A DNA stretch of 43,404 nucleotides from a virus: IMG/VR virus record IMGVR_UViG_3300045945_000008, positions 1-43,404 of that record; one strand, written 5' to 3'. The position numbers and the translations under genes are program-made. The first letter of the stretch is position 1, and each line of letters starts with the position of its first letter. The notes beneath the pieces are model-generated. The model was not told the DNA's origin. It saw only the letters and a list, made by a program, of their open reading frames with translations, and did no database searches. Below are positions 32,903 through 38,609 of the stretch, piece after piece.

Positions 32903-33705
32903 CACTCCGCACCCGTTTTCAGTTCGAGCTCGTCGGACATCTCGGCGCCCGGCTGCGCTTGTTCGCCGCCAAAGGCATCAAGCCGGTCGGCAATGGCGGT
33001 GAGTGGCTTCACGTTCGGGTGCGGGTTGTCCTTTTTGTCGGCTTCCAGATCATCATCGCGCCGGATCAGGTCATCGAGATCGGATGACGTCGGCAACCGC
33101 TTGGCCAGGTTGCGCAGCACGGTTTTTTGCCAGGCCTCGTCGGTCCATTCTGTCCATAATGGGGAATTCTTGGCTCGGCTGGCGCTGCGGCGTTTATTTA
33201 TTTCGCTTTCGGACATCACCTTGATCATCACGCCGCCATCCTTGGTTTCCGCCATTGCGTAGGCCTTGATCGCCTTGCCGGTGCCGTCGCCTGGAACGTG
33301 CTTCATGTGCTCGCCGTGCTCGTCGATCCAGTAGTTGAACTCCTCGCCGTCGCGCACGATGCCGGCGGTGATTGCCTTGAACTGGCCGGAATTGCGGAAC
33401 CGTTTGAGCAGCCCGCCGATCATGGGCAGGTAGACAACCTTGCCGCCCATGACGACGAAGGCGGCATCGCGGTTGTCGGGAAGCAAGCCGTCGGCGGCGC
33501 ATTTCATGCAGGCCACGCCAAGCGATTGCCGGTCGGCGGCAAGCAGTTCGGTGTTGAGCAGCACCGCCGTTTTCACCGCGCGGATGAAGCGGTCAGCCGG
33601 GATGTGATCCGGCAGTGCACTCTTGAATTCATGCGATCTGGCGACAAGCTGGAATTCCAGCGATTGCATGGGGTCTTTAGCGATCTTGTCGGATTTGGCG
33701 GTCAT
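32902..33705 (-). CDS. recT: RecT-family single-strand annealing protein
   Basis: A 267-residue RecT/Redbeta-type annealing protein. The ATG at 33705 overlaps the exonuclease stop (atga). Family features are VLLNTELLAADRQSLGVACM with LPDNRDAAFVVMGGKVVYLP, and the core KRFRNSGQFKAITAGIVRDG. The C-terminus is acidic. It anneals single-stranded DNA left by the partner exonuclease and helps recombination and repair of phage DNA. Confidence 0.88.
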   Translation of the reverse strand: MTAKSDKIAKDPMQSLEFQLVARSHEFKSALPDHIPADRFIRAVKTAVLLNTELLAADRQSLGVACMKCAADGLLPDNRDAAFVVMGGKVVYLPMIGGLLKRFRNSGQFKAITAGIVRDGEEFNYWIDEHGEHMKHVPGDGTGKAIKAYAMAETKDGGVMIKVMSESEINKRRSASRAKNSPLWTEWTDEAWQKTVLRNLAKRLPTSSDLDDLIRRDDDLEADKKDNPHPNVKPLTAIADRLDAFGGEQAQPGAEMSDELELKTGAE

Positions 33706-34634
33706 GTGGTTTCCTTTATGCGCAGCACGCGCGGGGTTGATGGCGCAACGGTGTAGCCCTTGCGGTTCATTATTTTCCAAGTGACGTTGAAACCTGGAAC
33801 GATCGCGGCTGACGCATCCCGCATTTTATCCATCACCATCGCGTCGATTTCGTCACACCGCTCGGTTGCCGTTTTAATTGCGGATTTAAGCCCGGTGCGT
33901 TCCTGTAATCCTGAGATCACTTCGTTGTCGCCGGACAGGTCGATTGTTTTGGCGTCGAGCTCGCGCGGTGATAGCGCTGCGATCAGTTCCTTGTCCTTGC
34001 CATAATCGCGATCGGGTTCGTTGCCGTCGCGGATATCGTTCCAGAACTGCTGCACCGCCTGCTTTATCTTTTCCTCGGCGGCACGATGGCGCGGCACTTC
34101 AAAAATATGGCAAGGCAGATCATGCGGATCGACGACGAGCACCGCTATGGCACCGAACGCGGCATTGGTCAGCATCATCTCGGTGGCGATCTGCAGCATG
34201 ACCCACATCGGCGGTCCTGCCAGTTCTGTGCCGCCGTTCCAATCGCGCGCGAACACCGAGGGCGCCGCGGTCTTGCATTGCAGGACGCCGTTGCGTTCCG
34301 GCGGGTCGGTATCGGAAATATAAAAATCCGGCGTGCAGCCCAACCGCAGATCGGGATCGCGGAAATAATGCTTGGCCTTGGTGATCAGCCATTGCGGGCG
34401 CTGTTCCTCGACTGCCGCCGCAACCGCGCCTTCAAGGATCCTGCCACGACGCAAGGGGCCACTGTCCTTGACTTCCGGCAGCTCGACCTTGCCCTGCTTT
34501 TCGATGTAGAGGCGAAGCGCGGACACATACGGGTGCAGCCCATGAAGCGCCGGTTCGACGGACGCCGTGACGTCGCGCTTTCGGAGACTTTGCCATTGAT
34601 CGCGGCTGGTTATGTCGATGCGCTCAATCGTCAT
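33702..34634 (-). CDS. YqaJ/lambda-exonuclease-family recombination nuclease
   Basis: A 310-residue protein of the YqaJ/lambda exonuclease group (PD-(D/E)XK fold), partner of RecT. Motifs are LGCTPDFYISDTDPP, with the metal-binding Asp, and GVLQCKTAAPSVF, where the (E)xK position reads QxK. An extra helical C-terminal part follows. The substitution of Gln for the expected Glu is unusual and may weaken metal binding. It is the first gene of the leftward operon. Its ATG at 34634 has a ggagg with only one base between, and the putative promoter lies directly before it. Confidence 0.82.
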   Translation of the reverse strand: MTIERIDITSRDQWQSLRKRDVTASVEPALHGLHPYVSALRLYIEKQGKVELPEVKDSGPLRRGRILEGAVAAAVEEQRPQWLITKAKHYFRDPDLRLGCTPDFYISDTDPPERNGVLQCKTAAPSVFARDWNGGTELAGPPMWVMLQIATEMMLTNAAFGAIAVLVVDPHDLPCHIFEVPRHRAAEEKIKQAVQQFWNDIRDGNEPDRDYGKDKELIAALSPRELDAKTIDLSGDNEVISGLQERTGLKSAIKTATERCDEIDAMVMDKMRDASAAIVPGFNVTWKIMNRKGYTVAPSTPRVLRIKETT

Positions 34635-34640
34635 GCCTCC

Positions 34641-34669
34641 GTTCTATTCCAAAACATTTGGAAAGGCAA
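34641..34669 (-). promoter_or_regulatory. Putative leftward early promoter with operator (PL-like)
   Basis: On the reverse strand: -35-like TTGCCT (34669-34664), a 17-bp palindrome TTCCAAATGTTTTGGAA filling the spacer (34663-34647), and -10-like TAGAAC (34646-34641). The exonuclease ATG lies 35 bases after the first T of TTGCCT, so the message would be leaderless or nearly so. The twin site at 35276-35292 supports a repressor-operator reading. Confidence 0.6.
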
Positions 34670-34677
34670 GCGGCCAT

Positions 34678-34694
34678 TCACAAGAATTTTGGAC
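34678..34694. promoter_or_regulatory. Possible degenerate second operator
   Basis: A 17-bp stretch TCACAAGAATTTTGGAC that keeps the right arm TTTTGGA of the operator consensus but only part of the left arm. It lies 31 bp from the full operator, three helical turns. It may be a weaker site for co-operative binding. Confidence 0.35.
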
Positions 34695-34786
34695 AATAGC
34701 GGTTGCAATCGGGGGCGCGACAAATAGACTGTGCAAGTGCCCCGTGCCGTGGCGTGTTAATTAGTGGGGCCAGATAAGGGTCGGCC

Positions 34787-34966
34787 ATGACACCGGATGC
34801 GCACAAGCGCCAGGCCTTGAGTTTGGCCGCACAGTTGCCGGAACAACCGGAAGATGTGCGGGCGGTAATGCTGCAACTACAAGTGCTTGTCGATGACTTC
34901 CTGCTGCGAACGGAAGGCCAACCTGCCCGGCCTAGCGTCGTGCCCTTCCGCGCCGAGAGCCATTAG
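34787..34966 (+). CDS. Small protein (59 aa)
   Basis: A 59-residue rightward protein starting at ATG 34787 with an aaggg site about 8 bases upstream. It reads MTPDAHKRQALSLAAQLPEQ, then PEDVRAVMLQLQVLVDDFLL. It is helical, possibly a small regulator. It overlaps the 3' end of the leftward repressor by 35 bp. Function unknown. Confidence 0.55.
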   Translation: MTPDAHKRQALSLAAQLPEQPEDVRAVMLQLQVLVDDFLLRTEGQPARPSVVPFRAESH

Positions 34967-35213
34967 GAAGCTCGCCCAGGCGTTTTGCCAGCTCGACGGG
35001 CAGTCCGGCAGGGTTTCCGAAGAATAACCAATCCATGGTCACGCCCGGGAAGCGGCGGCATATCTTAATCGCCACGTCCAGGCTCAACGGTGTCCCGCGC
35101 TCGAAGTTATTCCACCGGCTGATCTTGATCCCCAACGCTGCGGCCATGGCGGTCTGCGTCGGGATCTCCAGCGCCTCGCGCAATCGCACCAGCCGCGCAC
35201 CCTGTTCAGTCAT
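34932..35213 (-). CDS. XRE-family HTH repressor (CI-like)
   Basis: A 93-residue DNA-binding protein with an HTH of the Cro/CI family: LRLREALEIPTQ-type start, then TQTAMAAALGIKISRWNNFE (recognition helix), and LSLDVAIKICRRFPG. The ATG at 35213 is preferred over an upstream GTG at 35222. There is no protease-like C-terminal domain, so it is not of the SOS-cleaved kind. It is transcribed opposite to the Cro-like gene and is the likely lysogeny repressor acting on the paired 17-bp palindromes. Confidence 0.82.
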   Translation of the reverse strand: MTEQGARLVRLREALEIPTQTAMAAALGIKISRWNNFERGTPLSLDVAIKICRRFPGVTMDWLFFGNPAGLPVELAKRLGELPNGSRRGRARR

Positions 35214-35269
35214 GGGCCGCACTCTACTACTGCCCGCGATGCTACGTCATGTCGCAAGGCTTTGGGAAG

Positions 35270-35297
35270 TTGCATTTCCATAAATTTTGGATATGCT
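35270..35297 (+). promoter_or_regulatory. Putative rightward early promoter with operator (PR-like)
   Basis: -35-like TTGCAT (35270-35275), the 17-bp palindrome TTCCATAAATTTTGGAT (35276-35292), and -10-like TATGCT (35292-35297). The operator matches the leftward one at 13 of 17 positions. The ATG at 35305 lies exactly 35 bases after the first T of the -35 box, the same spacing as for the leftward promoter. It lies between the repressor and the Cro-like gene. Confidence 0.65.
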
Positions 35298-35304
35298 GGC
35301 GGGA

Positions 35305-35526
35305 ATGAAACTATCCACGGCAGCCGAAATCATCGAAAAGCTGGGCGGAATCAACACCGTCGGGGCTTTGACGAACTCCGATTACAAGGCGGTGTGGAAT
35401 TGGAAGGCCGGCAACTGGTTTCCCGCCCGCACCTACGTCGTCCTTGATGCCGAATTGCGCAAGCGCGGCCTGATCGCGCCGGCCTCGCTGTGGGGCATGA
35501 AGCAAACCGAATTCGAGAAAAAGTAG
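35305..35526 (+). CDS. Cro-like HTH regulator
   Basis: A 73-residue protein with the Cro/YdaS-like HTH: TAAEIIEKLGGINTVGAL, then DYKAVWNWKAGNWFPARTYV. The pattern 'NWK..NWFPARTYVVL' is typical of such phage regulators. The ATG at 35305 was chosen because upstream starts would sit inside the promoter, and because it matches the spacing of the leftward start. It is divergent from the repressor and is the first gene of the rightward regulatory operon. Confidence 0.75.
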   Translation: MKLSTAAEIIEKLGGINTVGALTNSDYKAVWNWKAGNWFPARTYVVLDAELRKRGLIAPASLWGMKQTEFEKK

Positions 35527-35555
35527 CCGCGTCAAACGCCGCGAAAGGCGCGCCG

Positions 35556-36011
35556 ATGGATGCCTATGCCCCAAAGCCAAGCCGATGGGACGACAATCCG
35601 GGGATGGACGACATGCTCAAGCAATTGCTGGCCGAGGGGTTCAGCGCCCGCATCATCGCCGACAAGCTGTCGAAGCTATTCGGCGCACCGTTGACACGCA
35701 ATTCGGTGATCGGGCGCGCGGCGCGAAAGAAATTTCCTGTCCCGATAAAGACCAAACCGAAAGCAAAGCCCGTTCCGATCTTGTCTGCGGCGGCCTTTAC
35801 CCGGACGTTGAAGCAGACAAGGGCGGCGGGCGTTGAACCCTTGCAAACCGCGCCCGCCGCTTTCCTTGGCATTGCGCTGATTGATCTAAATCAACACCAC
35901 TGCCGCTATCCGGAAGGCGATCCGATCCTGTTCTGCGGCCAGCCGCCGGTCGATGGATCGCCGTATTGCAAAAAGCATACGCGCCTGTGTTTCGTCGGGG
36001 GTAAACGATGA
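35556..36011 (+). CDS. gcrA: GcrA-family cell cycle regulator homologue
   Basis: A 151-residue GcrA-like protein. The DNA-binding part is MLKQLLAEGFSARIIADKLS followed by LTRNSVIGRAARKKF, and the C-terminal sigma-factor-binding part has CRYPEGDPILFCGQPP and SPYCKKHTR. In Caulobacter and relatives, GcrA activates promoters that carry methylated GANTC sites during S phase. A phage copy may take over that programme or co-ordinate lytic genes with it. That role is inferred. The ATG at 35556 has an aaagg site. Confidence 0.88.
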   Translation: MDAYAPKPSRWDDNPGMDDMLKQLLAEGFSARIIADKLSKLFGAPLTRNSVIGRAARKKFPVPIKTKPKAKPVPILSAAAFTRTLKQTRAAGVEPLQTAPAAFLGIALIDLNQHHCRYPEGDPILFCGQPPVDGSPYCKKHTRLCFVGGKR

Positions 36012-36643
36012 TCGAGGCCGCCGAATACGCGACACCGTATCAACGCCGCCTGTATGAGCGCTATCAGGAGATCCACCGCAAATTCTTTCCCCGCCCGCCG
36101 GTATTTCCCGAAGCGCAGCCGGAAGCACAGCCAGAGCAGCCGCCAGAGCCAATTCCGGCAATCCCGGTCAAGCCGATCGATATCACGCAGACCAAACTGC
36201 GCATGCGCATCATCCGCCGTGTGGTCTGCGCTTCGTTCAGCATTACGCAGGAGTTCCTGATCAGCGAGCAGCGCACGGCAAAGGTCGTCGTTCCCCGGCA
36301 TCTGTGCGCCTACCTGATATCGCGCTTCACCACCGCATCGCTGCCCACGATCGGCAAATCCTTGGGCGACCGCGATCATACGACGATCATCCATGCCATT
36401 CGGCGCACAGGGGTGCGCATTGCCGCCGACCGCAAGTTTGCCGAGAGGGTGCACATGATCGAGCAGGAAATCCGCAACGAACTGGGCGAAACGTCAAGGC
36501 CGCGGCACTGCATCGCGCGCTATGTCGAGCATCATAGGGTGGCCGACTACCTGCTCATCGGCTGGATGTGGGCCGCGAACCTGAACGAATACGCGGCGCT
36601 GCTGATCTGGCCATGCGGCTGCCAGTATGTGGAGCCGAAATGA
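36008..36643 (+). CDS. DnaA C-terminal-domain (domain IV) protein
   Basis: A 211-residue protein that carries the DNA-binding domain IV of DnaA but no AAA+ ATPase. A Pro-rich N-terminus (residues 32-55) is followed by domain IV at about 65-150: QEFLISEQRTAKVVVPRHLC and LPTIGKSLGDRDHTTIIHAI. The latter is the DnaA-box recognition signature. The C-terminal 55 residues are unique. It may compete with or recruit host DnaA at DnaA boxes. The start overlaps the GcrA stop (atga). Confidence 0.85.
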   Translation: MIEAAEYATPYQRRLYERYQEIHRKFFPRPPVFPEAQPEAQPEQPPEPIPAIPVKPIDITQTKLRMRIIRRVVCASFSITQEFLISEQRTAKVVVPRHLCAYLISRFTTASLPTIGKSLGDRDHTTIIHAIRRTGVRIAADRKFAERVHMIEQEIRNELGETSRPRHCIARYVEHHRVADYLLIGWMWAANLNEYAALLIWPCGCQYVEPK

Positions 36644-37353: not shown

Positions 37354-37370
37354 TACCAAAGCTTTTGGAA
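37354..37370. promoter_or_regulatory. Third copy of the 17-bp operator palindrome
   Basis: TACCAAAGCTTTTGGAA matches the operator at 34647-34663 at 14 of 17 positions. It lies in the 153-bp gap after the DUF1376 gene. A good -10 box (TATACT at 37408-37413) lies about 40 bases downstream but has no clear -35 box. The site may control entry into the HNH/NusG/terminase segment. Confidence 0.5.
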
Positions 37371-37457: not shown

Positions 37458-38069
37458 ATGCTTATAGCGCCAATCAAACTCAAAAAATGCAGCCAATGCG
37501 GCGGTGAGTGGGATGAGGAAGCAGCATTCAGAAAAAATCCTCCCCGCTGGCAAGGGTCCCTGCCAGCATCGCGGCCGCGGTGTGTGGGTTGTGAATTAAC
37601 AGAACGAAATGACCCATCACCCGAAGCTAGAGCACGCAAAAAAGCAAAAGAAACTTTGGACTACCACGCTGGAAAATATGGGATGAAGCCGGACCAGTTT
37701 GCTCGGCGTTATGGTTGGGACACCAATCGGATGGCCTACGATATCATGCACATTTATGAAAACACGTGCTGCTATTGTTGGGAAAGATACGATGGCATGG
37801 GCAACGGATTGAGGGACATCACACTTGATATTGTAGATCGCGAGCGCGAGCCATATTACGGTACTAACGTTAGATGGTGCTGTTCGACGTGCAATTCCGA
37901 AAAAGCAACAATGAGTCCAGAGTTGTGGGCACGGCGCTTAAATTTCTGGCGCGAATATCACAACCATATTGAATCAATAAAGAAAAACGTCGTTCATGGC
38001 CTGCCAATGGAAGCCTATTTTGGGCCGGCTAAATTGATTTCTATGGTCGTTCTTGCGTTGCTGTTCTAA
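37458..38069 (+). CDS. HNH-like endonuclease with zinc-knuckle, AT-rich insert
   Basis: A 203-residue protein. Two CxxC-type knuckles (KKCSQCGG near residue 10 and CCYCWERY near 106) are followed by TLDIVDREREPYYGTNVRWC and CSTCNSEK. This is an HNH-type metal-binding core. The coding sequence is clearly lower in GC and has more AT-rich codons than its neighbours, so it may have been gained recently (homing-type or moron). The function in phage DNA packaging or mobility is not certain. Confidence 0.72.
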   Translation: MLIAPIKLKKCSQCGGEWDEEAAFRKNPPRWQGSLPASRPRCVGCELTERNDPSPEARARKKAKETLDYHAGKYGMKPDQFARRYGWDTNRMAYDIMHIYENTCCYCWERYDGMGNGLRDITLDIVDREREPYYGTNVRWCCSTCNSEKATMSPELWARRLNFWREYHNHIESIKKNVVHGLPMEAYFGPAKLISMVVLALLF

Positions 38070-38609
38070 ATGCGCTGGTACGCCGCCAAAACAAAACCCC
38101 GCCAGGAGCACACGGCTCTCGAGCACCTGCGCCGGCAGAACTTCGAAACCTACTGCCCGCGCATTATGATTGAGCGCCTGAAAAGCACAGGCATACGCCG
38201 CGAGTTGGAACCTCTCTGCCCCGGCTACGTCCTGATCCGCTTCGATCTCTCCGACACGACTTGGCGCGTTATCAACAGCACCCGCGGCATCTCCAAACTG
38301 CTCAGTTTCACGGAAAACGGCACGCCAACCGCCATCACGCCCGGCAGCGTGGAAAGCCTGAAAGCGCTTGAAGCACAAGGCAAACTGTTCATATCGGAAG
38401 TCACGCGCCTGCACCGTGGCGACAAGGTGCGCATCAAGTTCGGCACGCTGTCCGATCGTATTGCCGAAGTGGTTTTTTCCCAAGGCAACCGCATCACATT
38501 GCTGCTTAATTTACTTGGTCGGAAAGTCCCTATAAAAGCACCACTACATGCCCTTGAGGTGGTGCAGGGTCGGCACACTAAAGCTAGGTCCCCTGCGCTG
38601 GTGCGGTAG
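38070..38609 (+). CDS. NusG/RfaH-like transcription antiterminator
   Basis: A 179-residue NusG-family protein. The NGN domain (residues 1-100) opens MRWYAAKTKPRQEHTALEHL and has LCPGYVLIRFDLSDTTWRVI. A KOW-like part follows (residues 115-165, VTRLHRGDKVRIKFG). It is shorter and more basic at the C-terminus than host NusG. Such specialised paralogues (RfaH/LoaP) bind RNA polymerase and let it pass terminators in long operons. The late operon that follows spans more than 30 kb. ATG directly follows the previous TAA. Confidence 0.85.
   Translation: MRWYAAKTKPRQEHTALEHLRRQNFETYCPRIMIERLKSTGIRRELEPLCPGYVLIRFDLSDTTWRVINSTRGISKLLSFTENGTPTAITPGSVESLKALEAQGKLFISEVTRLHRGDKVRIKFGTLSDRIAEVVFSQGNRITLLLNLLGRKVPIKAPLHALEVVQGRHTKARSPALVR

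Follow-up and report, generated by a model that had tools for sequence, protein, structure and literature searches.

Predicted operators in the early promoter spacers and a probably leaderless cro mRNA: the putative immunity region of a temperate soil alphaproteobacterial phage

In phage lambda, the repressor and Cro genes are divergent, operators lie at both early promoters, and cI is expressed from PRM as a leaderless mRNA; the cro mRNA, in contrast, carries a ribosome-binding site in its leader, and CI has a cleavable C-terminal domain. Leaderless switch mRNAs are also described for PY54, a telomere phage of Yersinia, where cI and cro each give one leaderless mRNA, whose 5' end was placed at the AUG by RACE (PMC4488713), and for the repressor-type mRNA of the paaR2/ydaS locus of CP-933P, a cryptic prophage of E. 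coli O157:H7 (PMC8630535). From these accounts, such mRNAs are thus already known as a kind. Regarding possible hosts, 320 gene start sites in B. japonicum are reported 0-10 nt before start codons, 192 of them exactly at these codons (PMC4842269), and 171 leaderless mRNAs, all with AUG, are reported in S. meliloti beside 4,430 other mRNA starts (PMC3616915). According to these data, such hosts therefore read leaderless mRNAs, for a small minority of their genes.

Here we describe the early control region of IMGVR_UViG_3300045945_000008, an IMG/VR virus record that was analysed whole (43,404 bases, the window). Since it encodes an integrase, RecT, a RecE/YqaJ exonuclease, a GcrA-like protein and a large terminase (Pfam, PHROG), we judge it by its genes to be a temperate tailed phage; it appears to belong to the temperate phages of soil alphaproteobacteria, with its early genes controlled from two operator-bearing promoters. 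The stretch around the two elements is predicted to form its immunity (lysis-lysogeny) control region, with a lambda-like layout: a divergent HTH repressor and a small HTH Cro-like gene, and the same operator at both early promoters. Contrary to lambda CI, whose cleavable C-terminal domain has no counterpart found in it, the repressor here counts only 93 aa. PY54 is alike in its divergent cI/cro genes and its HTH Cro with a palindromic operator, although the single operator bound by that Cro lies near cI rather than within the spacer of the cro promoter, and the host is a gammaproteobacterium (PMC4488713); in the window phage the operator lies in the PR spacer and recurs at OL, with a spacing kept over many phages. 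CP-933P resembles it in its 97-bp divergent region, where both proteins bind operators, but the leaderless mRNA described there is that of the cI-like gene, and the locus is coupled to a toxin-antitoxin module (PMC8630535). Like the window phage, the rhizobial phage 16-3 is an alphaproteobacterial temperate phage, with PL and PR under its C repressor (PMC3694467). The literature located, in which subscription journals are thinly covered, names no leaderless cro in this phage clade; as far as it shows, the new part is an OR1 within the PR spacer that is kept across many phages with changing operators. The features of the region are as follows.

33702..34634, minus strand: RecE/YqaJ-type exonuclease gene (YqaJ Pfam 8e-12; PHROG 434, 1e-47), predicted leaderless from PL, ATG 35 nt from the -35
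34641..34669, minus strand: putative leftward early promoter PL, with -35 TTGCCT (34669-34664), TTCCAAATGTTTTGGAA (34663-34647, OL1 in the spacer) and -10 TAGAAC (34646-34641), then GGAGGC and ATG 34634
34647..34663, unstranded: predicted operator OL1, TTCCAAAACATTTGGAA, a perfect 7-3-7 palindrome with 0 mismatches to TTCCAAANNNTTTGGAA (none in 60 shuffles)
34678..34694, unstranded: predicted weaker operator OL2, with its centre 31 bp from that of OL1 (doublet reached by none of 100 shuffles)
34787..34966, plus strand: small conserved ORF, convergent with the repressor gene, with no family match in Pfam or PHROG; comparable small ORFs stand at the same place, by eye, in L009, L017, L022 and L004
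34932..35213, minus strand: prophage repressor gene, HTH_3, 93 aa (Pfam HTH_3 5e-6), ATG 35213 preferred to GTG 35222
35221..35226, minus strand: weak -10-like TAGAGT, candidate PRM, 7 nt before ATG 35213; second-best promoter match, start predicted at -1, no clear -35
35270..35297, plus strand: putative rightward early promoter PR, with -35 TTGCAT (35270-35275), a spacer of 16 and -10 TATGCT (35292-35297), then GGCGGGA and ATG 35305; top generic sigma70 match among the 150 nt before cro, with its start predicted at -1
35276..35292, unstranded: predicted operator OR1, TTCCATAAATTTTGGAT, inside the PR spacer, centre 21 nt before the cro ATG, place kept in relatives
35305..35526, plus strand: Cro-like gene, 73 aa, predicted leaderless from PR (AlphaFold pLDDT 87; best solved folds are Cro proteins)

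The original prediction paired two elements on opposite strands, each with an ATG 35 nt from the start of its -35 and with 13 of 17 operator positions in agreement. Direct reading confirms both the distances and the agreement; the shared element is real as well, but its consensus had been printed with 18 letters, one n too many, the correct form being TTCCAnAnnTTTTGGAn. The element, TTGC(C/A)T followed by TTCCANANNTTTTGGA, occurs exactly twice in the window, each time 35 nt 5' of an ATG. The exact 16-mer consensus has no other match in the 43,404 bases, nor has the whole element when its box is relaxed to TTGCNT. The -35/-10 spacer measures 17 in PL versus 16 in PR. Palindromic sites with at most two mismatches to TTCCAAAnnnTTTGGAA number three in the window, for 0.1 expected and a maximum of 1 in 60 shuffles, and the 31-bp doublet of OL1 and OL2 is present in the window and in four relatives. 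A further operator-like site, TACCAAAGCTTTTGGAA, lies at 37354-37370 with one mismatch (0.017 sites of at most one mismatch expected); it is intergenic, ahead of the ORF at 37458, lacks clear promoter boxes and was not seen in the near relative.

We consider it quite probable that this is an immunity region with operators in the spacers of PR and PL, a leaderless cro mRNA and, in this phage, a leaderless exonuclease mRNA too. PR would drive cro and the genes after it, and PL the exonuclease gene and recT. With the same palindromic operator placed in the -35/-10 spacer of both, RNA polymerase would be kept out whenever an HTH dimer is bound there. The expected readers of the operators would be the Cro-like protein and the divergent repressor, and both early mRNAs would be translated without a Shine-Dalgarno sequence. 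This reading is built on the sequence itself, the conserved position, the recurrence of each lineage's own operator at OL and the absence of usably spaced Shine-Dalgarno sequences; protein binding, start sites, repression and leaderless translation are its predictions.

A first relative, IMGVR_UViG_3300047319_001294, encodes an exonuclease with 78% identity and a Cro-like protein with 81%. There the promoter of cro has the form TTGCAT-17 bp-TATATA-7 nt-ATG and the one on the left the form TTGTAT-17 bp-TATGCA-7 nt-ATG, 36 nt in each case, the left ATG being that of a small ORF, not of the exonuclease gene. Scanning viral contigs for the DNA element returned 18 stretches, one of them this known relative; three of the 17 others (L009, L017, L022) encode a Cro-like homologue of 45-48% identity whose ATG lies exactly 35 nt from the -35. 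The remaining 14, in which no ATG-started gene was seen at that place, were taken as chance matches. Searches with the Cro-like protein make no use of the operator sequence: an alignment of five sequences led to 13 viral and 3 genome loci, and one of 16 rows to matches in 23 out of 265 genomes from a single genus, taken to be Bradyrhizobium from the named seed locus. Among phage records the protein matched two Bradyrhizobium phages only, its L036 version matched none, and one plasmid match was found (L041); protein scans that started from one exonuclease or one repressor sequence gave few matches or none. Named relatives are ppBeUSDA76-1 in B. elkanii USDA 76 and ppBdUSDA122-1 in B. diazoefficiens USDA 122. 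The start-codon rule kept 41 of 42 records, leaving out L061, which has GTG where the cro ATG stands in others, and the removal of five loci redundant at >60% upstream identity left 36. L036 and L038, which duplicate L042 and L034, were left out too.

When the close relatives were scored with a generic sigma70 matrix that had no training on these loci, the top-scoring start fell at -3..+1 relative to the cro ATG in 9 of 16 (maximum of 4 among 200 shuffles, mean 0.66). The same held for six of the 12 not already known to have this operator, and the matrix prefers another start in 7 of the 16. The best palindrome is centred 19-25 nt before the ATG in 10 of the 16 (shuffles 0.84, maximum 5). The distant relatives are only weakly above chance on both measures, with 5/20 for the start (shuffles 0.89, maximum 4) and 4/20 for the palindrome (shuffles 0.98, maximum 5), and nine non-redundant ones (L048, L052-L058, L064) have no such cro geometry by eye.

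The 17-bp sequence was rejected as a conserved feature: it differs between lineages, and its place stays. Palindromes at the place of OR1 include TTCCAAAnnnTTTGGAA, TTCAAnnAATTTGAA, TATCACnnnnnGTGATA, ATCTAn7TAGAT, TTCACAnnnTGTGAA and TTCAGAAnTTCTGAA. Each locus was characterized by its own OR1, with the operator centre set by hand, from the palindrome survey or by eye, and this OR1 was sought 250-1400 bp upstream in 28 of the 41 loci, with 100 shuffles; the redundant L059, L060, L062 and L065 were left out, together with the nine loci without visible geometry. The operator recurs in 25 of the 28. In 22 it does so as a doublet whose sites lie 30-32 bp apart and in three (L031, L047, L063) as one site, neither form being reached by any of the 100 shuffles, and L032, L034 and L044 failed over the same range. 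In 23 of these 25 validated loci, 20-25 nt separate the centre of the operator from the cro ATG downstream, the two others being L046, at 27 nt (21 from an ATG 6 nt upstream), and L047, at 40 nt. In L047 the cro leader (1478-1503) is almost all hairpin and ends just before the ATG (-14.4 kcal/mol versus -5.2 for shuffles).

The proposal that the 17-bp palindrome is an operator thus comes out strongly supported, since OR1 and OL recur in other phages with a palindrome particular to each, and since the recognition helices of both the repressor and the Cro-like protein differ with operator class. The repressor helix RWNNFERG accompanies TTCCA-type sites in seven of eight such loci (the exception is L043), and RLSN accompanies TTCAA-type sites in all four. 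The match is imperfect, because in L030 the Cro helix has changed beside a retained TTCCA operator and L049 combines the RWNNFERG repressor helix with a different operator.

Near-leaderless mRNAs had been predicted on both sides. For the Cro-like gene, the comparison bears this out through the start prediction, the place of the palindrome and the paucity of Shine-Dalgarno sequences. As the -10 boxes end 6-7 nt before the ATG, transcription is expected to start at the AUG itself or 1-2 nt ahead of it; both window genes have this start codon (ATG 34634 and ATG 35305). A 4-nt Shine-Dalgarno match at 4-11 nt is found in just one of 20 cro genes, hand-picked as leaderless-like, versus 64 of 119 annotated genes of the two named Bradyrhizobium phages, which are related; the window cro has none at that distance. 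Because of the palindrome place, the operator recurrence and this scarcity, the cro mRNA is likely leaderless. The same operators and promoters could instead produce mRNAs with short leaders, starting further upstream and using GGAGG/GGCGGG as ribosome-binding site, which we regard as improbable. Even though a purine-rich run abuts the ATG, or almost does, in the window, L025, L026 and L030, and GGAG leaders follow the left promoters of five relatives, only 1-3 nt separate run and ATG, too short for an ordinary Shine-Dalgarno sequence, and the single match among 20 cro genes also speaks against such leaders. The purines are accounted for by a G-rich discriminator after the -10, and the 20-25 nt between palindrome and ATG are what one would expect of a -10 that sets the position of the AUG.

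On the left side, the prediction of a leaderless mRNA holds only in part. It is plausible for the window phage's exonuclease gene and, in one relative, for the first gene on the left, where the ATG stands 35 nt (window) and 36 nt (L023) from the -35, both leaderless-looking; the related record L023/L006 has TTGTAT-17-TATGCA at the place of PL. However, in L026, L030, L025, L029 and L033 the left ATG lies at 53-65 nt, behind a leader with a GGAG-type site, and a Shine-Dalgarno leader precedes the left gene in most relatives read. The leaderless exonuclease gene would thus be less general than the leaderless cro, and the window phage may have lost the left-side leader that its relatives keep.

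The palindromes could also be operators beside sigma70-like boxes that arose by chance, with another sigma factor or a distant promoter at work and the spacing due to common descent. The hexamers of PL and PR are indeed poor sigma70 matches (7-8 of 12 by our own count), and a stringent sigma70 consensus scan, with terminators, of 33500-36500 returned no promoter. Nevertheless, the generic matrix gives the same start in nine of the 16 close relatives, and common descent poorly explains a spacing kept among cro proteins of median 40% identity with replaced operators, which makes this explanation quite improbable. Still further from likely is that the repeats are sites of a host factor instead of operators of the two HTH proteins, since the operator differs among prophages of one bacterial genus and tracks the phage's own recognition helices.

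Returning to the leaderless reading of cro, its promoter-to-AUG distance might, in this group of phages, have been selected for leaderless translation, persisting while operator and recognition helices were replaced together, a rather doubtful idea for the moment. If true, entry into lysis would require ribosomes that can initiate on a message without a leader, such as intact 70S or stress-altered ribosomes, and the decision would be sensitive to the translational state of the host. Irrespective of this, a two-site pattern in one contig becomes a conserved control module of many uncultured phages and of prophages of Bradyrhizobium and its kin, the operator sequences become testable, and the choice of start codons is aided. 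One layout with differing operators also offers a natural series for studying how repressor and site evolve in step and why leaders disappear from the early mRNAs of phages.

The 35-nt distance had also been offered as an objective choice of start codons. It does fix 34634 and 35305, but not the repressor start, for which the rule was rejected; the better start is ATG 35213, 91 bp from the cro ATG, and in 23 of 41 loci a repressor start codon at a distance of 88-97 nt to the cro ATG could be chosen by hand. In these 23 hand-picked loci, the best promoter match falls within -3..+1 of the repressor ATG in four, the window's being only second-best. Pfam gives HTH models only for this 93-aa protein, with no C-terminal dimerisation or self-cleavage domain found. 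No peptidase domain was seen in the repressor either, which makes induction through RecA-driven self-cleavage unlikely; an antirepressor or another route would be needed. The Cro-like protein is modelled with four helices (AlphaFold, pLDDT 87.1) and matches Xfaso 1 Cro (TM 0.62/0.69, E 0.04) and 3bd1 (Z 7.0); a Cro fold is likely but unproven, because these scores are middling.

Three further genes stand to the right of the control region.

35490-36011: GcrA-family cell-cycle regulator homologue, directly after cro (Pfam 9e-18)
36008-36643: DnaA C-terminal-domain protein, next after the GcrA-family gene (Pfam 3e-21)
38070-38609: transcription antiterminator homologue, ahead of the terminase gene (PHROG 6386, 3e-19)

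GcrA-family and replication-initiation-type genes are also annotated in the plasmid record L041.
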